IMG/VR virus record: IMGVR_UViG_3300044951_000251
Location: 1-23,417 of that record
Length of the DNA: 23,417 nucleotides
DNA from: a virus
Direction: 5' to 3' (one strand)
The notes beneath the pieces are model-generated. The model was not told the origin of the DNA and did not search any database. It saw nothing but the letters and a program-made list of their open reading frames with translations. A program made the position numbers and the translations under genes. This document shows positions 6,159 through 21,509 of this stretch, in pieces; within the stretch, counting starts at the first letter, position 1; the number at the start of each line of letters is the position of its first letter.

Positions 6159-6347
6159 CTGCTTACGGACATCTTTGAGCTTTTCTTTGTATTCAAAGCT
6201 ACGAACATCTTGCATCTGACGTAGCTTGCTCAATTGTCGCAATGTCAAACGAGTCTTACGCAGCTGATTCTTTTGAGGCTGACTGTTGTCTTGAGCAACA
6301 TCTTGGTAGCCTTCAGGTTCACGGTGGTAAAGTTCGTTTAAGATCAT
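6126..6347 (-). CDS. Small prohead core-type protein in the gp67 position
   Basis: A 73-residue, highly charged protein (MILNELYHREPEGYQDVAQD at the start, then a Lys/Arg/Gln-rich helix) ending KQYAPPAAPAGL. It lies directly after the portal gene, where T4 carries gene 67, and the acidic core gene follows after the HNH insertion. Unlike T4 gp67 it is basic rather than acidic, so the equivalence is positional only. ATG at 6347 follows a CATAAATA motif by 7 nt. The last 33 nt are repeated, recoded, at the end of the HNH gene, so the present 3' end may have arrived with the mobile element. Confidence 0.65.
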   Translation of the reverse strand: MILNELYHREPEGYQDVAQDNSQPQKNQLRKTRLTLRQLSKLRQMQDVRSFEYKEKLKDVRKQYAPPAAPAGL

Positions 6348-6354
6348 GATCTTT

Positions 6355-6362
6355 TATTTATG
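6355..6362 (-). promoter_or_regulatory. Late promoter-like CATAAATA overlapping the portal stop codon
   Basis: The minus-strand CATAAATA contains the TAA stop of the portal gene (6360-6358) and ends 7 nt before the ATG at 6347. A message started here would have almost no leader. Confidence 0.5.
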
Positions 6363-8175
6363 CTGTCGGTGGTGGTGGAACTGCTGTGGGTGCTGTTCCT
6401 GCACCTGCTGGTGCACCTGGCAAGGCACCTGCATCGGGTGCGCCTGCAGGAGGCATTGCTGCCAGTTCTTCACCGGTGTTGATATCTGCTTCCATGCCTG
6501 CTGGAGTGATGCCAATACTGCGTAGATCTTGTCCTTGTGTAGTACTTAACTCAGGTTGATCACGTTCTTCACGCCAGAGTTTTTCGTTCTCTACAATCTC
6601 TTCTTGACTCAATCCCAAGTAACGTTCCATCAAGAAACGCTTACTCATGTAGGGCAATTGCTCTAGTGCACCAAATGTGCTCACACGGCTGGTGTCCATT
6701 TCTGCTTGACGATAACTGGCAAAGTTCTGTGGCGGACCTAGCACAATATCAAAAATACTGTTATCGATGTTAAAACCACGCCATTTCATGAACATCTTGA
6801 ATTCATCATCAAGTTTTTGCATGATTAAACGCTGTAAACGTTCGCAATACTGGTTGAATCTATACTCTTGTATCAGTGCTGTGCCTACTTTTCCGTCGTT
6901 CATTGCACGGTCCGAGTCGTCGGGTCCGGTGGGCAAATAGCTTGATGGCACACGCAGGCCACGGGCCATTTTGTTGTTAAAGTACTTTAAATCATCAATT
7001 TCGCCCAGTCCTGTACCACCGGGTAGGGTGTCTACACTAGAACCACGTCCGTCTGCTGTTTGTGGGAAAAAGTAATCTTCGTTGATACTCAATGGATTGT
7101 AACTAGCATCCATCAAGTTTGCGCCGCCGCCATTCACAGTGGGAATTCTACGCTGGTGCATTTCGTTTTTAACACGCTCAACAAAGGCCATGGCCATGTG
7201 GCTGGGCATGTTGCCCACGTCAATTTTAAACACTCTACGTTCTGGAGCACGGCTCACACGATAGATCAGCACAGAGTCTTCCAGCAGTTCTTTTTGTTTG
7301 TAAACTTTGAAGATGTTTTCTAAAATACTTTGTCCAAATGGCCAAAAGTAATCCAAGCCTTCATTTAGGCTCAGGTGCACCACGTGCTTGGCATCAATAC
7401 AGGTTTCATTCATGGCCTGTGCAAATCTACTGTTGCCCACAGTGCCACCGGCTCCACCACCAGATCCACCACTGGGACTTGAGTAGTTGGTTTGTCCTGT
7501 ACTACCTGTTGATCGGCTCACATAGTAGTCGCTGGTGGTTTTTTGTGCAATACTTAAATTTTGAAAGTTGGGGTTAATGTCACGAATAATGTACTGCTCA
7601 GGACGTTTGCCTTCTGATTCGTTCACAATCACACGACTGACTTTGACCATGTCAACCCAGTACATTTCAAATGTTTCTGGATCACGCACAAACAACTGAT
7701 CGCCATACTTGATGGTGTTACGGAACAGTTTGAACATGCGCTGATCCAACTTGTTCAGTTTGGTCCATTGCTGTAACTGCTTTTTAATGATTTCTACTTC
7801 GTGATCAGTGGGAGTATCTTTGAATGTGATATCAAAGGGTGTGTTGTTATCTTCGTTGTTCTGTGTGCTGAATTCTGCAATGATGTCCAAACATGCATTG
7901 ACTTCCGAATCAAGATCCATGTTTTCATACTGATTATAACGCTCAATACGATTGGGGTGACCAGAATACACTTCAGGCAGTCTACTGGCATAGTTGCGGA
8001 ATGCAAAATCATTACCTGTTCCGGCGTTGCCAGTGTAGCCATTTTGGCGATCGTAGCCCGGCAGGCCAGATTGATTGCGCCCAGAGATAGGACTCAGTTG
8101 GCCATTGGCGTCACCTGCGGCCACTTTGAAATATTTCATCCACCCGCGTTTACGACCATTCTCTGTTTCAGCCAT
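6358..8175 (-). CDS. 20: Portal vertex protein gp20
   Basis: A 605-residue T4 gp20-family portal. This dodecamer forms the DNA entry channel and starts prohead assembly. Recognisable segments: the N-terminal SRLPEVYSGHPNRIERYNQY followed by MDLDSEVNACLDIIAEFSTQ; ENIFKVYKQKELLEDSVLIY then RVSRAPERRVFKID (clip/stem region); and LKYFNNKMARGLRVPSSYLP. It has a Gly/Ser-rich insert near residues 226-246 and a ~50-residue Pro/Ala/Gly-rich C-terminal tail, making it longer than T4 gp20 (524). Start: ATG with AAAAGGAACAATTAA upstream. The promoter-like GGTAAATA at 8209-8202 gives a short leader that, unlike its neighbours, includes this RBS. Confidence 0.96.
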   Translation of the reverse strand: MAETENGRKRGWMKYFKVAAGDANGQLSPISGRNQSGLPGYDRQNGYTGNAGTGNDFAFRNYASRLPEVYSGHPNRIERYNQYENMDLDSEVNACLDIIAEFSTQNNEDNNTPFDITFKDTPTDHEVEIIKKQLQQWTKLNKLDQRMFKLFRNTIKYGDQLFVRDPETFEMYWVDMVKVSRVIVNESEGKRPEQYIIRDINPNFQNLSIAQKTTSDYYVSRSTGSTGQTNYSSPSGGSGGGAGGTVGNSRFAQAMNETCIDAKHVVHLSLNEGLDYFWPFGQSILENIFKVYKQKELLEDSVLIYRVSRAPERRVFKIDVGNMPSHMAMAFVERVKNEMHQRRIPTVNGGGANLMDASYNPLSINEDYFFPQTADGRGSSVDTLPGGTGLGEIDDLKYFNNKMARGLRVPSSYLPTGPDDSDRAMNDGKVGTALIQEYRFNQYCERLQRLIMQKLDDEFKMFMKWRGFNIDNSIFDIVLGPPQNFASYRQAEMDTSRVSTFGALEQLPYMSKRFLMERYLGLSQEEIVENEKLWREERDQPELSTTQGQDLRSIGITPAGMEADINTGEELAAMPPAGAPDAGALPGAPAGAGTAPTAVPPPPTA

Positions 8176-8201
8176 TTAATTGTTCCTTTTGCGTACAGCA
8201 A

Positions 8202-8209
8202 TATTTACC
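8202..8209 (-). promoter_or_regulatory. Late promoter-like GGTAAATA for the head operon
   Basis: The minus strand reads GGTAAATATTGC, 26 nt before the portal ATG and 4 nt past the tape-measure stop. It is placed to drive the head module with a conventional RBS-containing leader. Confidence 0.55.
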
Positions 8210-8213
8210 GTGA

Positions 8214-10550
8214 TCACTGTGCATACTTCAATAATTGCTCTGACACGCCCACTTGAGCTTGCATTATGCGTACCATTTGGTCTAGTCTATCAAGTTGTGC
8301 TGTCATCATGCTCATTTGTTCTTCATTGCCGACCATTTGCACTGGTATTGTCTTGCCATCCGGCAATGGAACCACTGCTTCAGACTGCCCGGCTTCGCCT
8401 GCCAGTACATTTGCTCCACCCGGCAACGGAGGAACTATGCCACCGTTGGCAGCTTGAAAATGCACAGGATCTTGAGGTACTTTCTGCGTTAACCCGTATT
8501 TTGCAAGAGCAGACACAGCCGCTGGATCTTGATAATTTTGAATATCAACTGCTTCGCCTCGTTCGTGTAAACTTCGTCCCGGTTTACCAATAGGCATGCC
8601 GCTGGCAGTTTTACCAGTTCTGCCAGCTGCCACTGATTCGTCCCATATTCTTTGTTGATCTTCAGGATCTCGTTTGGCACTGTTGATCTGTAACACACCG
8701 CCGGTCAATTTGTTATATTCAGTTGCAGCGGCAATGACGGAATCTTTAAATGTAGAATTTAACGCTTCAAAGTTTTGTTGGCTGCCAGATTTAGCAGTAA
8801 ATTTTAATATTTTTGTTAAATCAACTTTTTCAGCGGCCGAAGCAGAGCCAGATCCTTCAGGAGGCCGAGGACTAGGTTTTGCCGGGGTCGCTCCGCCTGC
8901 ACCTCCACCTGCACTTGCCGCTGGCTTGGCTGCCGCTGGCTTGACTGCTGTTGAGCCTGCACCTCCGCCCGAAGCAGCAGGTGCTTGTTTACCACCACCA
9001 CCAAAGAGTCCACTCAAGAAGCCGCCAACCCCACCACCACCGCTGCCACCACCCGCAGTAGGCGAAGTGCCTGGTCTTGGTGCGGCCTGCGCGGCAGCCC
9101 CAGGTTCATCACGTTTTTTGGTTGTAACGCCTGCCGCATTGGCCATCTTGGTCATGGCTTCAATGGTTGCATCAGTGGCGTTGGCCAGCCCTTTCATTCC
9201 AGTTGTAACAGGAGTTATACCAGCGTTGATTAAATCTTGCAATTTATCACGCGATGCGCGATTGGCATCCTGCAGATCTGTCATGTTCTGCGTGGTTTTG
9301 TCTGTAACGTTTTGTTGTTCTTTAGCTGCCGCCAACTGCTCTTCAACTGTGCCGGTTGCTTTCATGGCCACCAGTTTGTTTTGTTCTTGGAAGCCTATAA
9401 ACGTCTCATTGTTAACACCCATTTTGGCCAAATCTTTGGCGTAACCTGTTACATTTGCTGCTGCATCTTTCTGTGCGGCTGCCATGAATTCAGCCTGCGT
9501 AAACGTTTCTTTTCCTGCAACTGCGGCCGCGTTGGGCATTGTCAACAGCAACTTCTGCGCTTCTGGAGTATTCAAACTACCTGACAATATGTTCAAGAAA
9601 CCCTTGCGTGTTTCAGGAGCCACTTTGTCCAGCATGATCTGTGTGGCTTCAGCTTGTTTGAGTTGTTCTGCAGCCGCTGTGTCTCCCATGGCAGCACGTT
9701 GCTCTAATTCTGCTTTGTAGGCAGCATAGCGTTCTTCTGCCAATGCACTTTCGCGTGACTGTTCCTGTTGTTCTCTGTTCTTGCCGGTAATTTTTGCTAA
9801 TAAATCTGTTTCTTTGATGTAGGCGGCCGCTGCCACTGCTTGTTGTTCTGCAGACATTTTTTGCCGAGCACCTGACAGCATCTGCATTTTTGTATAACTG
9901 ACAATACCTTTATTGACCTCGTCAACACTAATACCCATATCTCGGAACTGGCGACCCATGTTACTCTGTTGTATAGACGAAGACACCGCAGCCATTTGGC
10001 CAAGGCCTTGACTTACTGTGCCGCCAAAATTGGCCAATGTTATTGAGTTTTCTTTGACAATACTGACAAACTTATCTAATTCGTCGGTACCGTAATTCAT
10101 GCGTTTTAAATTATCATAAACACCTTGCATGCCGTCGGCTGCTGTGGCACCCATTTCGGACATTTTTTGATAATTGCTGTATAGCAAATCTGCCTGTTTG
10201 TTTACAGCCTGTGTGTACTCACTTGCACCCTTGACCAGGGTTTTGAGAGCTCCACCTACATAAGGAATCAATCCCAGTAGATCTCCTAATGCATCTGCTA
10301 CTCCGCCAATGGATTTATTAAATACCGATGCACCAATTTCACCTTCCGCCAGTTGTTTAGTTAACCCCAGTGCAGAAGTTCCCAGTTGTCCAAGGCCTTT
10401 GCTCAGACTAGCAGTGACCCCTTTGATGCCAATGGACATGTCCATCATGGCCATTTTGGTTTCAGTGGTGACAGAGCCAAGACGCTTTATTTCGTCTGCT
10501 TCACGTGCTTTGAGTTCTGCAATTTCTTCGGGGGTGTACATACTTGCCAT
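8214..10550 (-). CDS. Tape-measure protein with M15 peptidase-like domain
   Basis: A 778-residue protein. Residues ~40-110 are hydrophobic/Gly-rich with LGDLLGLIPYVGGALKTLV, a typical tape-measure membrane-active segment. Residues ~110-475 are helical and Ala/Gln-rich. A Gly/Ala/Pro linker spans ~480-575. Residues ~590-700 resemble an M15 (D-Ala-D-Ala carboxypeptidase/VanY-type) peptidase: SLHERGEAVDI gives candidate zinc ligands His662 and Asp669, and DPVHF gives His698. The segment ANGGIVPPLPGG...AGEAGQSEAVVPL after it is the classic tape-measure C-terminal motif. The predicted role is setting tail length and cutting peptidoglycan at infection. In T4 the tape measure is gp29 (590 residues) and has no such domain. 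The gene precedes the portal and is divergent from the gp26-like operon. GGTAAATA ends 5 nt before the ATG. Confidence 0.85.
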   Translation of the reverse strand: MASMYTPEEIAELKAREADEIKRLGSVTTETKMAMMDMSIGIKGVTASLSKGLGQLGTSALGLTKQLAEGEIGASVFNKSIGGVADALGDLLGLIPYVGGALKTLVKGASEYTQAVNKQADLLYSNYQKMSEMGATAADGMQGVYDNLKRMNYGTDELDKFVSIVKENSITLANFGGTVSQGLGQMAAVSSSIQQSNMGRQFRDMGISVDEVNKGIVSYTKMQMLSGARQKMSAEQQAVAAAAYIKETDLLAKITGKNREQQEQSRESALAEERYAAYKAELEQRAAMGDTAAAEQLKQAEATQIMLDKVAPETRKGFLNILSGSLNTPEAQKLLLTMPNAAAVAGKETFTQAEFMAAAQKDAAANVTGYAKDLAKMGVNNETFIGFQEQNKLVAMKATGTVEEQLAAAKEQQNVTDKTTQNMTDLQDANRASRDKLQDLINAGITPVTTGMKGLANATDATIEAMTKMANAAGVTTKKRDEPGAAAQAAPRPGTSPTAGGGSGGGGVGGFLSGLFGGGGKQAPAASGGGAGSTAVKPAAAKPAASAGGGAGGATPAKPSPRPPEGSGSASAAEKVDLTKILKFTAKSGSQQNFEALNSTFKDSVIAAATEYNKLTGGVLQINSAKRDPEDQQRIWDESVAAGRTGKTASGMPIGKPGRSLHERGEAVDIQNYQDPAAVSALAKYGLTQKVPQDPVHFQAANGGIVPPLPGGANVLAGEAGQSEAVVPLPDGKTIPVQMVGNEEQMSMMTAQLDRLDQMVRIMQAQVGVSEQLLKYAQ

Positions 10551-13330: not shown

Positions 13331-13759
13331 TTACAGTTTGTTTATTATATGAGAGCCATGCACACGCACTTGTATGTGGCCGTTGTAATAATCTCGTGAT
13401 TCCAATACTTGTCTTGCGAATTGTTCTCTTGCCTCAATGTAACTACATTCTGACTTTGAGTTGCAATAGTAAAGTATTTCTCTAGTGAAGTTTTCGGTGC
13501 CTAGTTTTTCGATGTCTGAAGTCAATTCTGGGCTTGACCCATAGTACTCTCTCCAGTCTGAGTCGACCTTTGATCGTATCTTTTTCTTCTTCTTTGTGCC
13601 GTTCTTTTGTTTTACAGTTTTGTAAGTTGTTTTGCTAAATTTTGCTAATTTTTTGCCTATGTACTTGCGACCAGTGAGATTATTTGTAATCAAGTAAACA
13701 AATCCAACACACTCTTCGGGCAACGTCTCGATTGGGGTATCTTGATATAACCATGTCAT
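13331..13759 (-). CDS. GIY-YIG homing-type endonuclease
   Basis: A 142-residue protein from the ATG at 13759. A TTG-started frame reaches 13807, but the ATG start gives MTWLYQDTPIETLPEECVGF, which matches the usual N-terminus of this phage family. The GIY-YIG core is FVYLITNNLTGRKYIGKK, followed by a Lys-rich insert and WREYYGSS, the segment with the conserved Arg/Tyr. It lies last in the leftward operon, 31 nt after the radical SAM-SDR stop, and is followed by a structured non-coding stretch. The family is common in T4-like phages as free-standing mobile nucleases; a homing site is not visible. No convincing RBS (AGGA lies 17 nt upstream). Confidence 0.85.
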   Translation of the reverse strand: MTWLYQDTPIETLPEECVGFVYLITNNLTGRKYIGKKLAKFSKTTYKTVKQKNGTKKKKKIRSKVDSDWREYYGSSPELTSDIEKLGTENFTREILYYCNSKSECSYIEAREQFARQVLESRDYYNGHIQVRVHGSHIINKL

Positions 13760-13790
13760 GTGTTGTATGCGATTTATCCTTGCTGTATAG

Positions 13791-15497
13791 TTATGCCTTA
13801 TGATCAAAGTTTACGTAAAAAGTTGCCTCTTCTATCACAGTATTTGAACTGACTGCGGTAGCGTATTGTATAAAGTTGCTGATGTCGTTTAAATTAACGC
13901 CGTTGCCAGTCCAATTGGGCCGGCTACGACTAAGTTCTGTATCTAGTCTATCTAATGTAATAAGTATTGTTTTAAATGGTACAATGTTTTGTTTAAATGC
14001 CTGTGTGCCTTGACGACTTGCGTGTTCTAATGCTGCCTTGCTAATTCTATATGTTTCAAAACGAGGCTCGGGAGCAACAATACTTTTGCTGCCTGTGCTG
14101 CCAATGTTAATGATATGCCCAGTTTTTCTTGCTGTTTTCCATGCATCGTACACAGCCATGTATATTTGTGATTGTGCAAAGTTAGCCCAGTCTTCTTGTG
14201 GTGGACCGTCGAATGCATTGTTAACAAACACATCAAAGTCTAAACTTATTTCTGCAATTTCTTTGGCATGTTTGGTAATGTCGTAACCTTGCGTACGGCT
14301 AATACTAGTTCCACCAAAGGTCTGTACCAACTGTAGCCCCAGGCCACGATTACCACCAGTGATTAAGAATGTTTTGTTCATTTTTGTTTGATCCCATACC
14401 TTTTGAAACTGCTTGCCGCAGGTTAGTGCGCATTCAAACAGTCGCTCAGGAAATGTATTATACTTCCAACTGTTCACAAGGTCTACCCAAAAAGAGTTAG
14501 TAAACACCTGTTCCAGTGAACGATGATGTATGTTTAAGTTGTCAGCACCGTGGCGGTTGACAAATTCTTGTACTTGATTCTCTCCATCCACTGTGCTTAA
14601 ATCATTACTACACGGCAGCACAGATTGATCACGGAACCTAGCGTCACTAAGATTGTGATTTAACATATTGCACGGCAACACAAGTCCTGCGGCATTAATA
14701 GCAACTTTGTTGCCTTTTAGTGAGTCACAACAAATTTCTGTGTTGGCAAAGTATTCTTTAATATTTGGGTATTGTTTTTTTAAATCTGGCAGTATATTAA
14801 TGCTTTTGTTTTTGTATTGCGGTAGAGCAGTGGGTTTTATAACATACTCTGTTTGTCCTTGCCGATTTTGTACAGGCCACTCTGAAAATTCTTCCATGGT
14901 GTTGTGGTTTAAGAATCTACCAGTGGCACGATATTTAAAATCTCGAAAGCCTAGACTGACACTTAACTTTTGTGCCTGATTGACTTGATGTTGATTATGT
15001 TCAAATATAATGTAGTTCCATACTGCACGGCCGCCTGCGGTAATGTATGCAGTGGCATTGCTGATAATCTTGTCAAAGTCAGTGTTGCGTCTATACAAGT
15101 GGTTGGTATCAGCAAGACCGTCAATGTTAAAATCTATTTGCCCGAAGCCACCGATAATCTTGGCCATCTCGGTCCAGTATTCTGTATCGTGTGCGCTACC
15201 ATTGGTGTGTATGTATAACCAAAGTGTAGGACACTTGCGTCTAAAGTCACGCAAGATATCCAGGAATTCTGGATGCATAATAGGATCACCGTAACTGCCA
15301 CAGAAGAACACTTGTCTTAATCGATTGCATAGTTCTTCAGTAAACGCACGGTCTATTACCTGCCTAGGAAGGTGTTCAAGTTTAAGATATGGGTTAAGCA
15401 CACCACCATTGACGTTGCGAGGACATTGCGGACACGCGGCATTGCAGTAAGTGGTTACTTCAATCTGGTACTCGTCAATAACATTAAAATCGAACAT
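13791..15497 (-). CDS. Radical SAM enzyme fused to a short-chain dehydrogenase/reductase
   Basis: A 568-residue two-domain protein. Residues 1-~365 are a radical SAM domain: CNAACPQC at 18-25 gives the three [4Fe-4S]-binding Cys (18, 22, 25), FCGSYGDP follows, and later Cys residues (ICCDS, LPCNM, CALTC) suggest a SPASM-like auxiliary cluster region. Residues 373-568 are a complete SDR: TGGNRGLG nucleotide-binding loop (380-387), VNNA (425-428), INIGSTGS and the catalytic YRISK (Tyr483, Lys487). An internal ATG at the SDR start (14381) has no good RBS, so a true fusion is more likely than two genes. It starts 3 nt after the previous stop. The pairing suggests a radical modification followed by oxidation or reduction of the same substrate; the substrate is unknown. 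Confidence 0.88.
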   Translation of the reverse strand: MFDFNVIDEYQIEVTTYCNAACPQCPRNVNGGVLNPYLKLEHLPRQVIDRAFTEELCNRLRQVFFCGSYGDPIMHPEFLDILRDFRRKCPTLWLYIHTNGSAHDTEYWTEMAKIIGGFGQIDFNIDGLADTNHLYRRNTDFDKIISNATAYITAGGRAVWNYIIFEHNQHQVNQAQKLSVSLGFRDFKYRATGRFLNHNTMEEFSEWPVQNRQGQTEYVIKPTALPQYKNKSINILPDLKKQYPNIKEYFANTEICCDSLKGNKVAINAAGLVLPCNMLNHNLSDARFRDQSVLPCSNDLSTVDGENQVQEFVNRHGADNLNIHHRSLEQVFTNSFWVDLVNSWKYNTFPERLFECALTCGKQFQKVWDQTKMNKTFLITGGNRGLGLQLVQTFGGTSISRTQGYDITKHAKEIAEISLDFDVFVNNAFDGPPQEDWANFAQSQIYMAVYDAWKTARKTGHIINIGSTGSKSIVAPEPRFETYRISKAALEHASRQGTQAFKQNIVPFKTILITLDRLDTELSRSRPNWTGNGVNLNDISNFIQYATAVSSNTVIEEATFYVNFDHKA

Positions 15498-15500
15498 TTT

Positions 15501-16046
15501 TTAAATCTCAGGTAAATCTTTGAAAAAATTTTTAGCTTCTTGCAACACAGATGCACTAGTTTTAAAAATAGTATTATCCAGACTTAGCCTATCTTTTTTG
15601 CGGCATTCAATAATCCAATCAATGAAAGGGTAGAAAAATGTATACCGCCATGTGCCGTTGTGCCCTAGATATAAATTAGGGGCTATGTACGAAGGTAATT
15701 CTTGACCAGAATCTACCATATCTGAAATGTAGGACAGACCATATACTGGCCAAAATTGACCAATCTGTAACTCAGTGTCAGTCAGTCGTACCTGGTCGAT
15801 TGTGATAGACTTGATGTAAACATATTTGTCCACAGCAATTGACCCATCAGGATTGTAAAGATGATCAGTGTCTGTTTTGCCAAAGTGTACAATTTTAAGT
15901 TCGTGTTCGCTGTAGCCAATATCAAATTCACGATTAAATTGTGGTATTGCCGGACCTTCGTACAAGATTATATAATCATCTATTAGAATTTTAATTAAAG
16001 GAGTGCCCAACTGGTCACCAATTTCAAAATCAATTATTAAGTGCAT
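15501..16046 (-). CDS. Hypothetical beta-rich protein in the radical SAM cluster
   Basis: A 181-residue protein with no recognised family. The first ~110 residues alternate hydrophobic and polar residues (IKILIDDYIILYEG; HELKIVHFGKTDTDH; KYVYIKSITIDQVRL), as in a beta-sandwich, reminiscent of carbohydrate-binding modules. The C-terminal third has Trp/Tyr-rich WRYTFFYPFIDWII and a helix. No signal peptide. Its ATG overlaps the B12 radical SAM stop by one base (TAATG), and the radical SAM-SDR gene follows after 3 nt, so the three are very likely made together. It could be a binding partner or substrate carrier; this is speculation. Confidence 0.7.
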   Translation of the reverse strand: MHLIIDFEIGDQLGTPLIKILIDDYIILYEGPAIPQFNREFDIGYSEHELKIVHFGKTDTDHLYNPDGSIAVDKYVYIKSITIDQVRLTDTELQIGQFWPVYGLSYISDMVDSGQELPSYIAPNLYLGHNGTWRYTFFYPFIDWIIECRKKDRLSLDNTIFKTSASVLQEAKNFFKDLPEI

Positions 16047-17545
16047 TAATGAATCACTCCTGCTAATCGGTCAAGGCGACTTTTATAGTTGTCCATTAAC
16101 ACTTTGAGTTGGTCGTCACCTTTCCAGAAAGTATACCCTAACTTAACTGCTACTTCTTGTGCTTCAATTCTACGATGAATGCGCTCTTTGTAACTAAGTG
16201 TAGGATTATCCAAACATTTCCAATCAGGTCCCTCGGGTCTATTTCCATTAACTCCTACTATGTTAAGTAATGGATACTCTGACCAAATTGGAGTACCTTC
16301 TTCGATTGTCAAGGTAGTTCCTAAGTTTACACCTATAATGGTACCATCAGCAACATATGGCTGATATTTACGCAACATGTCAAGTGTTTGGTCAAAGTCC
16401 TCTCGAGTTTCTGTGGGAAAACCAACAATAATAAGAAAATAAGCATTAACTCCATGCTTACTAAACATCTTCATAGTAAAGTCTAAATCAATGTTAGTGA
16501 ACCCTTTTCTCATATGTTCTTTTACACGGTCGCTTCCTGATTCAACGCCAATGACCATACATTCGGCTCCACCTCTTCCCATTAATTCATAGTCTCGCTC
16601 CTGCATCATCTGCTCACTGCGAACAATGTAGTGGCTACTATATTTGAAATAGCGATCGGGAAGATTATGTTTTTCGTAATATTCAATAAGTTTACGATTG
16701 AATATTCTAAAATCTTTGACACTTCCGTTACATAAAGCATCATGAAAGAAAAAGTCACGAACTCCGTACTTTTCATAGTAGTGTACTAGTTCGTTAAACA
16801 ACCGTTCACCTGTTTTATACCTATATCCTCCGTGCATAGTAGGAATATCGCAAAACATACAGTTGCGAACACACCCGCGACTGGTTTCCATTGGTAGCAC
16901 ACCATTTTCATATCCGCTGTAATATTTTTTAATATCAAAGTCGTCAAAGTTCATAAACTCGTGGGCGTTGACGTCACTCCTCTCAGCAAAGTTATCTGAA
17001 TCAATCCCTAGTGCATCAAACTTGCCTGATATTAATGAATCTATAGTGGTTTCAACTTCGCCTCTTACCCAATGGGCAATTAATCCTTTTTGTTTTAGTT
17101 CGTATGCAAACTCGGGTCGATCAGCGTAACTTCCATTTTCGCAACGAACTAACCCTTGACCGCCGATAACAACTGGAATGTCTGTGTGTTGTTTCCAAAG
17201 AGATAAAAAATCTCTAGTAAATCTTTGCGCCTGCCAGGTAAACACACTAACCATTAGCCAATTAGGATTATACTTTTTAATTCTGTAAACCCACTCGGTC
17301 ATCCAATCAGTGTATAACCTCAGTTCATCTTGATCTAAATTAATCTGATAATTAAAAAAGTAATCATCAAGTTTCCAAAATAATTTTTCTCCATGTAATT
17401 TTCTAAAGTTACTATGAAAATCTAAATTAATATCTAATATTTTAGAATCAAGGCCACGCTTCTGCAATAAAGATTTTATGATACTTGGCGCCGCCGCTGG
17501 TCGCAATGCGGCAATTCTTGGAACAGATAAAATAATTGCAAACAT
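16046..17545 (-). CDS. B12-binding-type radical SAM enzyme
   Basis: A 499-residue protein with class B (cobalamin-type) radical SAM architecture. Residues 1-~180 are a Rossmann-like B12-binding-type domain (SVPRIAALRPAAAPSIIKSL; PVVIGGQGLV; HWVRGEVETTI). The radical SAM domain follows with TSRGCVRNCMFC (Cys225, 229, 232), FFFHDALCNG, the Glu/Ser-rich VIGVESGSDRV and IVGFPTETREDF, all typical of the family. Such enzymes perform methylations or other radical chemistry; the substrate cannot be read from sequence. Starts 2 nt after gp46 and overlaps the next gene by 1 nt. This gene and its neighbours look more A+T-rich than gp46 and gp47. Confidence 0.88.
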   Translation of the reverse strand: MFAIILSVPRIAALRPAAAPSIIKSLLQKRGLDSKILDINLDFHSNFRKLHGEKLFWKLDDYFFNYQINLDQDELRLYTDWMTEWVYRIKKYNPNWLMVSVFTWQAQRFTRDFLSLWKQHTDIPVVIGGQGLVRCENGSYADRPEFAYELKQKGLIAHWVRGEVETTIDSLISGKFDALGIDSDNFAERSDVNAHEFMNFDDFDIKKYYSGYENGVLPMETSRGCVRNCMFCDIPTMHGGYRYKTGERLFNELVHYYEKYGVRDFFFHDALCNGSVKDFRIFNRKLIEYYEKHNLPDRYFKYSSHYIVRSEQMMQERDYELMGRGGAECMVIGVESGSDRVKEHMRKGFTNIDLDFTMKMFSKHGVNAYFLIIVGFPTETREDFDQTLDMLRKYQPYVADGTIIGVNLGTTLTIEEGTPIWSEYPLLNIVGVNGNRPEGPDWKCLDNPTLSYKERIHRRIEAQEVAVKLGYTFWKGDDQLKVLMDNYKSRLDRLAGVIH

Positions 17546-17547
17546 GA

Positions 17548-19629
17548 TTACGCTAGTTCTATATCCGTATTATAACTGGTGAAGCCATTCTCTTTGATTA
17601 CTTTGAGAATGTTCTCTACACGACCAGCAAGTTCGTCTCTATGACTAACAAGCCATATACTCTTATGGCGTTCACGACTCATCTTCTTTAGCAGAGCCAG
17701 GGCATTTTCCACACCCTGTGTGTCTAGTCCGTTGTCAATCAATTCGTCAATGAACAACAAGTTGATTGGGCTGTACAAACTTTCCCATACGTCACGGAAT
17801 GCCCATGACATTGATAGGATAAGTCGATTGCGTTCTCCGCGACTCAAGTTATCAAAGTCTAGTTCACGACCTAGTTCTTCAATCATCACACTCAGATCGT
17901 TTTGAAACTTCACAGTGTGTGGCAAGCCAATACGATCCAAATAGTGTGTAAGGCGTGCATTCAAATAACTCAAGTTTTGATCAATGATCTTCTTGCGTAC
18001 AAAACTATCTTTTGATGTCAACAGTTTGAGCAAGAAGTCTTGATGTTCTTGTAATCTTGTGAGATCATTGAGTGCATCGTAGCTGACAGTTTGCAGGGCT
18101 TGTTGTTGCATTTCTGTAATCTGTTCTGTGTACGGATCCCGTTCCTCGCCTTTGGTAGCAATCTGTGTCAGCAGGGTGTTCATACGACTACGATGATCAA
18201 CTGCCTGTGCTTCTGTATCGTAATGTGTAACAGGCTGTGTGCCAACTTCTACAGGTGTGTGCTCTGCCAGTTGTTCAGCATAGGGATCTGTTTCTGCACG
18301 TTTGGCATCAATCTTGTGTTGAATGTTTTCCAACTCACTGGAATGTCGAATAGCTTCTGTTTCTGTTCGATAGTGTGTGGTAGGTTTTGCACCCAGCACA
18401 CCTAATGCAGTCAATGCATCTGTATTTTCCATCCATTGACCATTAGTACTCAACGCCTGCAGTGCAGACTCTTGTAGGGCTTTCTCTTTTGTTGCCAACA
18501 CTGTTTCGTGATTGGCGTCATGGAAGTCTTGTCCGCAAGCATAACACTTGTGATTTTTTAGTTCTTCAATTTCGGTTTTGAGTTTATCAATGACTTTTTG
18601 TTCTCGAGCTTCGTCGGCAACACACCTGGCAATCAGTTTCTCAAGGTCAGTAATGTCTTTAGATCGTTGTGTGTAAGCAGCCAAGTCTACATGTGCTTGT
18701 AGTTCAGCTGTGATATCAATATGGCTGAGATTGTTGTAAGTTAGTTCCAACTCGCTGATATCTTTTTGTTGTTTTTGTTTCCAAGCAGTTTGTCGACCAA
18801 CTAGAGCGGTATACGCATCTTGTTGTTGTTTCCTTGTGGTCCACACAGCTAGATCTTTGTGAGCCAGCAGTTCTACTTCGATGTCAATCTTGGCTAGGTC
18901 ATCATACTGTGCCACAAGGTACGCCACATCACTATCGTATTTCTTTTGCCAAAGCACTTGCCTGCGTTTCAAACTTTCGATCTGTTCTTCAATGCGCTTG
19001 TTGGCTTCTTGTTCGGCACGGATACGGAATTCTTCTTGTGAAATGCTGTCTTTGGTCTGCCGGTTGAGTTCTTTGATAGCGTCTGCACGTTCGCTCAGCA
19101 AGGTGATACCCAACAACTGCTCAATGATGTTGCGTTGGTCGTTGGCTTTTAAACTCAAGAACGGTTCGGTATAAGTGTTCAGTGCCAACACATGTTTGAA
19201 CATGTCATGACTCATATTCATCACACGTTCAATTGCATCTTGTGTTTCGCGGCTATCGCCTTGTGCTTCGTCAGTAGACACTTGTGCTTCGTTGTTGACA
19301 TAGAATCGTAGCACGTTGGGTTTGCGTCCACGTTCAATTTTGTACTCTTGACCCCCAATGACAAAGTCCAGGCTCACCAGCATGTTCTTACCGTTGGTTT
19401 TGTTAACAAGATTGTCTTTACGTATATTACTTAAGGCCTGCCCGTACAATGCATAACTTAAGGCATTAATGATAGTAGTTTTACCTGTACCGTTGCGTGA
19501 CCCGTCACCGCCTAAGTCAAGATTCTCGCCCAGGACCAGTGTAAGGTCGTTGCGATCAAAGTCAATACCTTGCGTGGCATTGCCCACGCTCATAAAGTTT
19601 TTGACAGTGAGATTTTTAATTTGAATCAA
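17548..19629 (-). CDS. 46: Recombination nuclease subunit gp46 (Rad50/SbcC-like ATPase)
   Basis: A 693-residue SMC/Rad50-type ATPase that works with gp47 in resecting DNA ends, recombination-dependent replication and host DNA degradation. Walker A is GDGSRNGTGKTT (41-52); the zinc hook is CYACGQ (362-367) between coiled-coil arms; the signature motif is LSRGERNR (595-602); Walker B is LLFIDELIDNGLD (624-636); the switch His is in VSHRDE. Both arms hold tandem repeats: residues ~242-263 recur at ~298-319, and ~416-456 at ~466-506. The start is TTG at 19629 with GGAG 6 nt upstream, inside the end of the previous gene (14-nt overlap). In most T4-likes gp47 directly precedes gp46; here two genes intervene. 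Confidence 0.95.
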   Translation of the reverse strand: MIQIKNLTVKNFMSVGNATQGIDFDRNDLTLVLGENLDLGGDGSRNGTGKTTIINALSYALYGQALSNIRKDNLVNKTNGKNMLVSLDFVIGGQEYKIERGRKPNVLRFYVNNEAQVSTDEAQGDSRETQDAIERVMNMSHDMFKHVLALNTYTEPFLSLKANDQRNIIEQLLGITLLSERADAIKELNRQTKDSISQEEFRIRAEQEANKRIEEQIESLKRRQVLWQKKYDSDVAYLVAQYDDLAKIDIEVELLAHKDLAVWTTRKQQQDAYTALVGRQTAWKQKQQKDISELELTYNNLSHIDITAELQAHVDLAAYTQRSKDITDLEKLIARCVADEAREQKVIDKLKTEIEELKNHKCYACGQDFHDANHETVLATKEKALQESALQALSTNGQWMENTDALTALGVLGAKPTTHYRTETEAIRHSSELENIQHKIDAKRAETDPYAEQLAEHTPVEVGTQPVTHYDTEAQAVDHRSRMNTLLTQIATKGEERDPYTEQITEMQQQALQTVSYDALNDLTRLQEHQDFLLKLLTSKDSFVRKKIIDQNLSYLNARLTHYLDRIGLPHTVKFQNDLSVMIEELGRELDFDNLSRGERNRLILSMSWAFRDVWESLYSPINLLFIDELIDNGLDTQGVENALALLKKMSRERHKSIWLVSHRDELAGRVENILKVIKENGFTSYNTDIELA

Positions 19630-20470
19630 TATCTACTCCGTGTTCTTTTAACATTTTAACAATATCAGCAGTGTTTGTAAACCAGTTAGAATAATCATTG
19701 TGCGGAACTTCAATGTTGTACTTTACCCAGATGTAATAGTATACCACTGCTTGAGTCCAAATATCTGTAATATGTGTTAGATCTGTGCGGTTGTTAGTTG
19801 TTGCTAGAGACAACACATTCTTTGCAGTTATCACAGGATCGATATATTTAGAATTTGCCAGGCGCCACTCTTTCCAAATACTATAAAAATCATCTGTTTT
19901 TGCAATAGCATTTATTACAGCATGACATTCCTTGTAATCCTGGTATAATTCGGCTATATCTAACTCAGTGTCAAGTAGCGTATGTTTGTTCCGTGACTTC
20001 CAGACATGCCGGAGTGGATGATCTCGCAAATACAAAAAGTATTTTTCACGTTGTGCCCAGGGCTCGTCAGATTCCCATTGATCAACCGGTAGTTGTTGTT
20101 GAAGGGTGCTTTGCATGCCTTTTTCAATCATGGTTCGGGCAACCACTGGCCAACTGTGATTAGAATAACAAATTTTAATCACAGTTGCATTGGCAAATGT
20201 GTTTTTAAAATTCTCAGATTCGTTGTTGATTCCGTTATCAATTAGCACACAATAGTTTTGATTGTTGACAAACTCAATGCCACCAGGCCAGCATTCGTGA
20301 AGATATTTAGGCACAATTAAATCCAAACTGTGACTATCACCAGTTGATGAAAAATCCAAAGATTTTTTAGGGCGGACAAAATTATCACCGTGTAAAGTTA
20401 GTATAGCATTGACAAAGTGACCAAACCCACCACTTGGATACCACACACAATAAATATTAGAAGTAGTCAA
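19616..20470 (-). CDS. Hypothetical protein between amidinotransferase and gp46
   Basis: A 284-residue protein of unknown family. I chose TTG at 20470: AGAAGG lies 8 nt upstream, whereas the more upstream TTG at 20491 has no RBS and overlaps the amidinotransferase more. The N-terminus then reads TTSNIYCVWYPSGGFGHFVN; the YPSGGFGH segment resembles the substrate loop of some sulfotransferase- or glycosyltransferase-like proteins, but the P-loop Lys of sulfotransferases is absent. The rest is helical and rich in Trp/Tyr. No membrane segment. It overlaps both neighbours by 14 nt, the same distance at each end. Likely acts with the amidinotransferase; function unknown. Confidence 0.72.
   Translation of the reverse strand: MTTSNIYCVWYPSGGFGHFVNAILTLHGDNFVRPKKSLDFSSTGDSHSLDLIVPKYLHECWPGGIEFVNNQNYCVLIDNGINNESENFKNTFANATVIKICYSNHSWPVVARTMIEKGMQSTLQQQLPVDQWESDEPWAQREKYFLYLRDHPLRHVWKSRNKHTLLDTELDIAELYQDYKECHAVINAIAKTDDFYSIWKEWRLANSKYIDPVITAKNVLSLATTNNRTDLTHITDIWTQAVVYYYIWVKYNIEVPHNDYSNWFTNTADIVKMLKEHGVDIDSN
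19636..19639 (-). promoter_or_regulatory. RBS deciding the TTG start of gp46
   Basis: GGAG lies 6 nt before the TTG at 19629, inside the preceding gene. The TTG start keeps the conserved IQIKNLTVKNF beginning of the ATPase domain. Confidence 0.65.
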
Positions 20471-21509
20471 TGCAATCACCTTCTCGCACAATGTCTAGGG
20501 TCGCGCAGTGTAGACCACAATCCCAAAAAAATCTATGTCTGAATGGAACGATATGTGGGGTAATTCCATGTCTTTCCAGAGCCAAAATAATAGCAGGATT
20601 ATGGCTATTGATGATAGCATTCTGTTGATTGATCATAAAAAGATTAACATCAAATTGTGTTTCCATTGAATATCCTACCCAGGAATTAAACTTGGTGCTG
20701 ACCAAATCAATCAATGCTGGATCTAATTCTTGATTTTTGATCCACCATTGTCCTTGAGTTGCTCTTAGAGATCTCAGTGCCTGATCATTGTCAGTATGTG
20801 AATGCCAGGGCACCTGTATAACCTCCCACCCGGGAAAACTATCTTTATACGTCAACGGATTCATATAAGTTACAATCAACCCAGGAACAACAGGAGAAAA
20901 CACTGCATCACTGTGTCCCCCGCAATCCACATAGTGGATTTTATATTTGTTAAAATAATTCGGTATAATTTTAGATTGTAATAATTTAAAATAGTCTTTT
21001 TTGTGATATGTGGGATCATGACTATAAAAATCAAAAAACAAATCTTTACCTACCCTGGTAATACAAGGTGGTGCCACTTTCTTCCACACGTCTTCATCTT
21101 TTCGATGATCTAATAACTGTGTCGGGTTCACCGAATCAATAAAACTATTCCAAGGATCAACATAGCCGTCTCCAAACCCGTTGTGTATGGCATGAAGAGT
21201 TTGGCCAATAACAATCATATCATCTCTTGGTTGCATCGGGGGTCGCTTATAAATTTCTTGGCCGGTATCAGCAGTGTACAAATACATTCCATAGTTGGAT
21301 GAAATTTCTGGCCGTATAACTTTTACGTTAAACTTTTGTAAAACTGATATTAATTTCTGGTAGTCTTCTTCTGTTTCTATAGAAATCCGTTCAAAGATAG
21401 ATCTTAATCGTGCATCTTGAATAAAACTAAAAAAATCAGGCGGATAACATTGACCTACCAGGCAAGTTTGCAGCGGTTGAAATCCGCTATTACTATTGGG
21501 ACTGATCAT
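20457..21509 (-). CDS. Amidinotransferase (guanidino-group-modifying superfamily)
   Basis: A 350-residue member of the arginine:glycine amidinotransferase/deiminase superfamily. Candidate catalytic residues are all present: Asp/His pair in CGGHSDAVFSP (His199, Asp201) and the nucleophilic Cys335 in GLHCATLDIVREG, the canonical C-terminal motif. N-terminal SGFQPLQTCLVG matches the 'EWdpL...VG' strand of the fold. These enzymes move an amidino group from arginine to an amine, or hydrolyse guanidino groups. Its start overlaps the gp47 stop (ATGA), and it is coupled to the next gene. In a phage it might modify a metabolite, a polyamine or a modified base; this is open. It appears more A+T-rich than gp47, suggesting later acquisition. 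Confidence 0.88.
   Translation of the reverse strand: MISPNSNSGFQPLQTCLVGQCYPPDFFSFIQDARLRSIFERISIETEEDYQKLISVLQKFNVKVIRPEISSNYGMYLYTADTGQEIYKRPPMQPRDDMIVIGQTLHAIHNGFGDGYVDPWNSFIDSVNPTQLLDHRKDEDVWKKVAPPCITRVGKDLFFDFYSHDPTYHKKDYFKLLQSKIIPNYFNKYKIHYVDCGGHSDAVFSPVVPGLIVTYMNPLTYKDSFPGWEVIQVPWHSHTDNDQALRSLRATQGQWWIKNQELDPALIDLVSTKFNSWVGYSMETQFDVNLFMINQQNAIINSHNPAIILALERHGITPHIVPFRHRFFWDCGLHCATLDIVREGDCIDYF
20479..20485 (-). promoter_or_regulatory. RBS deciding the TTG start at 20470
   Basis: The minus strand reads GAGAAGG, 8 nt before TTG, within the last codons of the amidinotransferase gene. Confidence 0.6.

Follow-up and report, generated by a model that had tools for sequence, protein, structure and literature searches.

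The fused gene and its two domains

The window, by which we mean the whole 23,417-nucleotide stretch of viral DNA analyzed here, carries a minus-strand gene in which a radical SAM (rSAM) enzyme and an SDR are encoded as a single protein. The features of this gene are as follows.

13791..15497, minus strand: fused rSAM-SDR gene, 568 aa plus stop, ATG start (open reading frame and Pfam)
14382..15497, minus strand: rSAM half, residues 1-372; radical SAM core and twitch-type C-terminal region (PF04055, AF2 model)
13794..14381, minus strand: SDR half, residues 373-568, 196 aa; a trimmed classical SDR (PF00106, structure alignment)
15423..15446, minus strand: C18-x3-C22-x2-C25, radical SAM cluster motif (78/78 relatives)
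14418..14729, minus strand: C257, C276, C356 and C360, invariant cysteines (alignment A2; motifs in 77-78 of 78)
14378..14381, minus strand: retained ATGA, the internal SDR ATG plus the base completing TGA, now out of frame (20/20 main-lineage sequences)
14337..14360, minus strand: TGGNRGLG dinucleotide-binding motif (TGxNxGLG in 78/78 relatives)
14037..14099, minus strand: catalytic Ser (NIGS) to YRISK (YxxxK); S...YxxxK pattern in 75/78 relatives

An earlier note had proposed an open reading frame with both domains at this position, and Pfam matches to both halves confirm it. Residues 12-163 matched Radical_SAM (PF04055) with 37.9 bits, above the cut-off of 29.5 (E 2.7e-9). With the SDR half as the only query, adh_short (PF00106) exceeded its cut-off of 26.6 bits (29.8 bits, E 5.2e-7); with the complete protein it scored 25.0 bits and narrowly missed it. 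The motifs listed in the note (CxxxCxxC, TGxxxGxG, YxxxK) were found as C18/C22/C25, TGGNRGLG and YRISK and are conserved in relatives, and an in-frame ATG at 14379-14381 opens the SDR half exactly where the note had placed it. An AF2 model, for which fused and separate relatives were aligned, contains two folded domains (mean pLDDT 83.5, pTM 0.69). Residues 367-373 between them have pLDDT values below 50, and the linker is short and, in this model, probably flexible or disordered. The claim that both domains are complete holds for the rSAM half, including a twitch region with four conserved cysteines, but not for the SDR, which is about 50 aa short.

The rSAM half resembles SPASM/twitch enzymes

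The modeled rSAM half aligned with SuiB, SkfB, MoaA, BlsE and DesII (Z 16.6-19.4) and with BtrN (Z 15.9, rmsd 3.6 over 232 residues, 16% identity). Both marks of a SPASM/twitch enzyme are present, namely four C-terminal cysteines and Z scores of 16-19 to BtrN/MoaA/SuiB-like folds. On sequence conservation and the model, Cys257, Cys276, Cys356 and Cys360 are predicted to ligate one auxiliary [4Fe-4S] cluster. In sequence, rSAM and SDR matches lay far under every NCBIfam equivalog cut-off, the best weak match being TIGR04317 (tungsten cofactor oxidoreductase rSAM maturase; 51.7 bits against a cut-off of 380). NF033640 (twitch domain-containing rSAM) gave 35.2 bits, below its cut-off of 170, and NF033070 (AprD4) was not among the matches listed, 25 of 31 NCBIfam rows. 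A profile sequence search of solved structures with the rSAM half returned none at E 0.01.

Since the best structural matches include peptide enzymes, a peptide substrate is possible. The rSAM half could be a peptide or protein maturase of the sactisynthase/SuiB-like kind, with the SDR modifying the same peptide. SuiB (19.4) and SkfB (18.7) indeed give the highest Z scores, and the best weak NCBIfam match is also a maturase. However, these Z scores are tied with those of MoaA and BlsE, and an unsystematic look at the locus brought no precursor-like small ORF to notice. Furthermore, the cluster motif begins at residue 18, leaving no room for an N-terminal RRE-type domain. We therefore consider a peptide maturase unlikely.

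The SDR half is a shortened classical SDR

Ser95, Tyr111 and Lys115 of the SDR are invariant in alignment A1, as are Ser28 and Arg29 after strand beta2. From general SDR knowledge, we take the arginine after beta2 to suggest a preference for NADPH. The SDR half aligned with classical SDRs at Z 16-17, and a profile search of solved structures returned classical SDR matches, though weak ones. It shares the Rossmann fold, TGxxxGxG and Ser-Tyr-Lys with classical members such as FabG-like, serine and L-threonate dehydrogenases, but lacks helix alpha2 and falls about 50 residues below their usual length of about 250 aa. Both that length and helix alpha2 are typical of classical SDRs, though not obligatory. 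The short form is a family trait, with 192-201 aa across 78 sequences, and the model predicts no helix between beta2 and beta3 (none from strand 397-399 to helix 411-418).

Most relatives encode the two domains as overlapping genes

Searched against IMG/VR, the complete protein matched 54 loci and the SDR alone 313 relatives, whose junctions were read in part (the best 80 per scan). We classified 247 loci; several were the same contig fetched again, and counts are accordingly given by distinct sequence. The tblastn frames revealed two states among relatives, with either one frame across both domains or two frames. The 127 distinct relatives comprise 82 split loci with a Shine-Dalgarno sequence, 23 split loci lacking one and 22 fused loci; 3 further loci are interrupted by contig edges. 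Thus, when relatives were checked for separated genes, as the earlier note had recommended, 105 of 127 proved to have two. The SDR lies directly behind the rSAM gene at every classified IMG/VR locus except the 3 at contig edges. At one locus (L118) the rSAM frame is broken well inside the gene, with a stop 719 nt before the SDR start; this is a pseudogene or an assembly error.

The carriers of the fused lineage are uncultured T4-related water phages, with sequences from many metagenomes. As the note had surmised, this is not a standard phage gene: the fusion occurs in no cultured phage of the collection, where rSAM matches were only distant (24-29% identity) and the SDR had no match. Among the matches listed for GTDB genomes, a close relative was found on one contig only, in a Bacteriovoracales MAG (positions 6294-8570; rSAM 45% and SDR 47% identity). 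Gene order is kept there, with a 106-aa ORF inserted between the two genes that overlaps the SDR by ATGA and whose start repeats the rSAM tail (WLDQNLEK). A large membrane-protein ORF resembling a glycosyltransferase adjoins this locus. The 128 other genomes of the same order contained no homologue at E 1e-20 (1/129, the MAG itself). Apart from this one MAG, then, the SDR appears from sequence to be a viral family among the matches listed.

The fusion junction retains the ATGA of the overlap

In all 105 distinct split loci the two genes overlap by exactly 4 nt (ATGA), and in 82 of them a Shine-Dalgarno sequence is embedded in the rSAM tail. At the commonest junction the rSAM protein ends in VWDQGG..R/K, and the codons of the two glycines form AGGAGG, the embedded Shine-Dalgarno sequence; the duplex energy with the 16S tail is -11.4 to -12.7 kcal/mol for this type. 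The second split type ends in QT[KR] or QS[KR] and has no Shine-Dalgarno sequence (-4.0 to -5.2 kcal/mol). Short overlaps favor termination-reinitiation and show a 4.5-8-fold enrichment among heteromeric complex subunits (PMC10666635). In the unfused relatives, the SDR can be initiated in this way.

The fused junction reads VWDQT[KR]M[NTK].., with a duplex energy of -3.9 to -4.0 kcal/mol, and one junction type is common to 21/22 fused sequences. Relative to the split types, the frame is shifted by 1 at the overlap (net -2 nt compared with the Shine-Dalgarno type, net +7 nt compared with the type lacking it), which removes the stop and yields a single chain. All distinct SDR sequences of the main fused lineage (20/20) keep the ATGA, which we interpret as a relic of the 4-nt gene overlap. 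The exception in junction type is a diverged fused gene (L166; 2858-4588 of a 194-kb contig) with a different linker, WDQNKTVANTYRYYITGD, which has no ATG there and still has a GTG.

Two further proposals about the junction were set aside. One was programmed -1 frameshifting in the unfused relatives; slippery heptamers before the stop were present in 0/20 loci of the type lacking a Shine-Dalgarno and 3/61 of the type with one. The other was that one inserted base joined the genes, an attractive candidate when ACTAAATGA is compared with ACTAAAATGA, but the fused SDR begins with two extra codons and the SDRs most closely related to it belong to the Shine-Dalgarno type. A consensus scan for promoters and terminators returned sites no commoner than in shuffled sequences.

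The internal ATG raises the possibility, mentioned in the earlier note, that the gene yields two products, the full-length protein and a stand-alone SDR of about 22 kDa. In keeping with this proposal, the Met is invariant (20/20 main-lineage sequences) even though residues 374-376 vary and residues 367-373 are predicted to be disordered, and stand-alone SDRs are functional units in relatives. However, the start has no Shine-Dalgarno sequence (about -4.0 kcal/mol, compared with -11.4 to -12.7 in split loci of the Shine-Dalgarno type), the stop codon needed for termination-reinitiation is gone from the fused gene, and L166 is fused without an internal ATG. Just upstream of this start, synonymous variation is reduced only marginally (in the lowest 5% of 6-codon runs, in one of four analysis windows tried). 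Given the loss of both stop and Shine-Dalgarno, a single product is favored, and a separate 22-kDa SDR from the fused gene is unlikely; what stands of the suggestion is the invariance of the ATG in the main fused lineage.

The fusion is old and both halves are constrained

When the junction columns were left out of the rSAM tree, all 19 full-length fused sequences grouped as a single lineage (SH-aLRT 99-100). L166 was placed elsewhere in the free tree, and a single clade of the main lineage plus L166 was not rejected (AU test, p 0.54); L166 may represent a second fusion event or a sister of the main lineage. Across the fused lineage, each half has a dN/dS of 0.064, indicating strong purifying selection on both, and median dS exceeds 1.3 and is saturated. 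Constraint on both halves together with saturated dS indicates that the fusion is old. The note's suggestion of a recent fusion fails on the same grounds, since synonymous distance is saturated and fused members diverge to about 70% amino acid identity. We infer that the split arrangement with its ATGA overlap is ancestral.

In the SDR tree the fused sequences do not group together, and this tree is unusable as a record of the fusion, since SDR 3' parts recombine. Two split loci, L024 and L028, have SDRs 87-98% identical in nucleotides to that of the window beyond the first 60-120 nt, whereas their rSAM genes are 62-64% identical to the window's. Such exchange of SDR 3' segments between fused and unfused loci, with rSAM genes staying distant, was seen in L024, L028, L078 and L086. 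This indicates that the SDR works in either form, and the occurrence of SDRs about 90% identical in nucleotides at both fused and unfused loci implies that covalent linkage is not needed for function.

This exchange would also be compatible with a neutral fusion, in which the two enzymes have unrelated substrates and share no more than their expression, as would the restriction of the fused form to one lineage, possibly plus L166. Against this proposal stand the absolute linkage of rSAM and SDR genes, the exact overlap in every distinct split sequence and the selection on both halves of the fused form, and we regard it as quite improbable. Joining of overlapping neighbor genes into one protein instead suggests successive steps of one reaction, and the rSAM and SDR probably act in sequence on one substrate. 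The weakest alternative, a sequencing or assembly indel that joined two genes, would agree with the stop at the junction in all unfused relatives but can be dismissed in view of 22 distinct fused sequences from many metagenomes and a main fused group that is one clade with purifying selection in both halves. The note had held that a stop between the domains in relatives would imply such an error; the stop is there, in every unfused relative, but the implication does not follow because a whole lineage is fused. That the rSAM-SDR fusion is real and inherited is, in our view, virtually certain.

Genomic neighborhood and carrier phages

Neighborhood counts were made over 60 loci. The genes around the fusion in the window are the following.

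13331..13807, minus strand: SegE-like GIY-YIG ORF, immediately downstream (PF19835 E 2e-33; 53/60 loci)
15501..16046, minus strand: 181-aa protein, predicted CBM60-like beta-sandwich, upstream (33/60 loci)
16046..17545, minus strand: B12-type rSAM protein, next upstream (PF04055 E 1.8e-17; 33/60 loci)
17548..19629, minus strand: gp46/SbcC-like recombination subunit, boundary of the cargo site (phrog_77 E 6e-103; 50/60 loci)

The fused gene thus lies between gp46 and the SegE-like ORF, packed end to end with the genes for the 181-aa protein and the B12-type rSAM protein. The predicted fold of the 181-aa protein matched vCBM60 (Z 9.8) and CBM36 (Z 9.6), the next, unrelated rows being at 5.4; the protein has a conserved YLGHNGTW motif. 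The B12-type rSAM protein gave a weak B12-binding match and NCBIfam matches of the B12-rSAM methyltransferase type under cut-off. A 350-aa protein is encoded at 20457-21509 (minus strand), with related ORFs in 5/60 loci; over its last 64 residues it resembles amidinotransferases (HsvA, E 3e-9; inosamine-phosphate amidinotransferase, E 9e-8).

The window's portal protein is nearest to those of Pseudomonas jumbo phages of the PA5oct/MIJ3 group (49.7%). In MIJ3, gp47, gp46 and portal keep this order but no rSAM-SDR gene is present, indicating that the fused gene is cargo at a variable site. In L086 the fused gene is on a 338-kb viral contig (IMGVR_UViG_3300046786_000293), which places jumbo-size genomes among the carriers. 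L003, L011, L014 and other phages have additional rSAM paralogues (30-39% identity) close to the pair.

A proposed two-step reaction

Three points favor a radical step that generates a ketone, followed by its reduction: the genes are paired, the catalytic residues are conserved, and AprD4/AprD3 provide a precedent. In this scheme, the substrate would be a sugar, cyclitol or nucleotide-sugar. The rSAM half would abstract a hydrogen at one of its carbinol carbons, and a BtrN-like oxidation or AprD4-like dehydration would yield a ketone. The attached SDR, using NAD(P)H, would then reduce this ketone, resulting in net epimerization or deoxygenation. The ATGA overlap may already keep the two products near 1:1; fusion would fix this ratio and may help to hand on the intermediate. 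The product would probably decorate a phage or host glycan.

The CBM60-like fold predicted for the upstream gene product hints at a carbohydrate substrate. Counting against it, the CBM60-like gene is absent beside many fused loci, and the peptide maturases SuiB and SkfB have Z scores at least as high as those of sugar enzymes. We accordingly propose ketone formation and reduction on a carbohydrate-like substrate only tentatively. The wider reading, a bifunctional phage enzyme that arose by in-frame joining of translationally coupled genes and that follows this ketone-then-reduction scheme, comes close to an even chance without quite reaching it. Its most specific form, a single-chain cascade in T4-related phages with an ATGA-coupled precursor, in which an rSAM-generated ketone is reduced by the tethered SDR, thereby supplying an unusual sugar to glycans of phage or host, is conceivable but doubtful.

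If this is true, the invariant ATGA-coupled precursor shows translational coupling turning into gene fusion. One homologous pair offers three natural states (Shine-Dalgarno with overlap, overlap alone, and fusion), which makes the passage from coupled genes to fusion directly testable. With this scheme, an uncharacterized phage pathway also gains a specific two-step reaction that can be tested.

Comparison with known systems

A limited search of the open-licence literature found no description of an rSAM-SDR fusion or gene pair. Environmental genomes of T4-like marine phages may carry a dozen rSAM genes, and no SDR partner or fusion is described there (PMC5332604). SPASM enzymes typically bind two auxiliary clusters (PMC9012708). 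Compared with SuiB and SkfB, its best structural matches (Z 18.6-19.4), the phage rSAM has only four conserved cysteines in its C-terminal region and no extra N-terminal domain before the core, and the alignments begin at about residue 100 of the SuiB and SkfB chains.

BtrN, a twitch rSAM dehydrogenase of butirosin synthesis, has a fully ligated auxiliary cluster and carries out a two-electron alcohol oxidation (PMC9012708). The same single auxiliary cluster with four cysteines is predicted here; the likeness consists of the fold match and the cysteines only and, unlike the phage fusion, BtrN has no SDR domain. The apramycin pathway offers a succession of an rSAM enzyme and an NADPH-dependent reductase, in the diol dehydratase AprD4 and its partner AprD3 (PMC5461906). 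These are two separate proteins of an antibiotic pathway, and the phage protein would resemble them in pairing an rSAM enzyme with a reductase.
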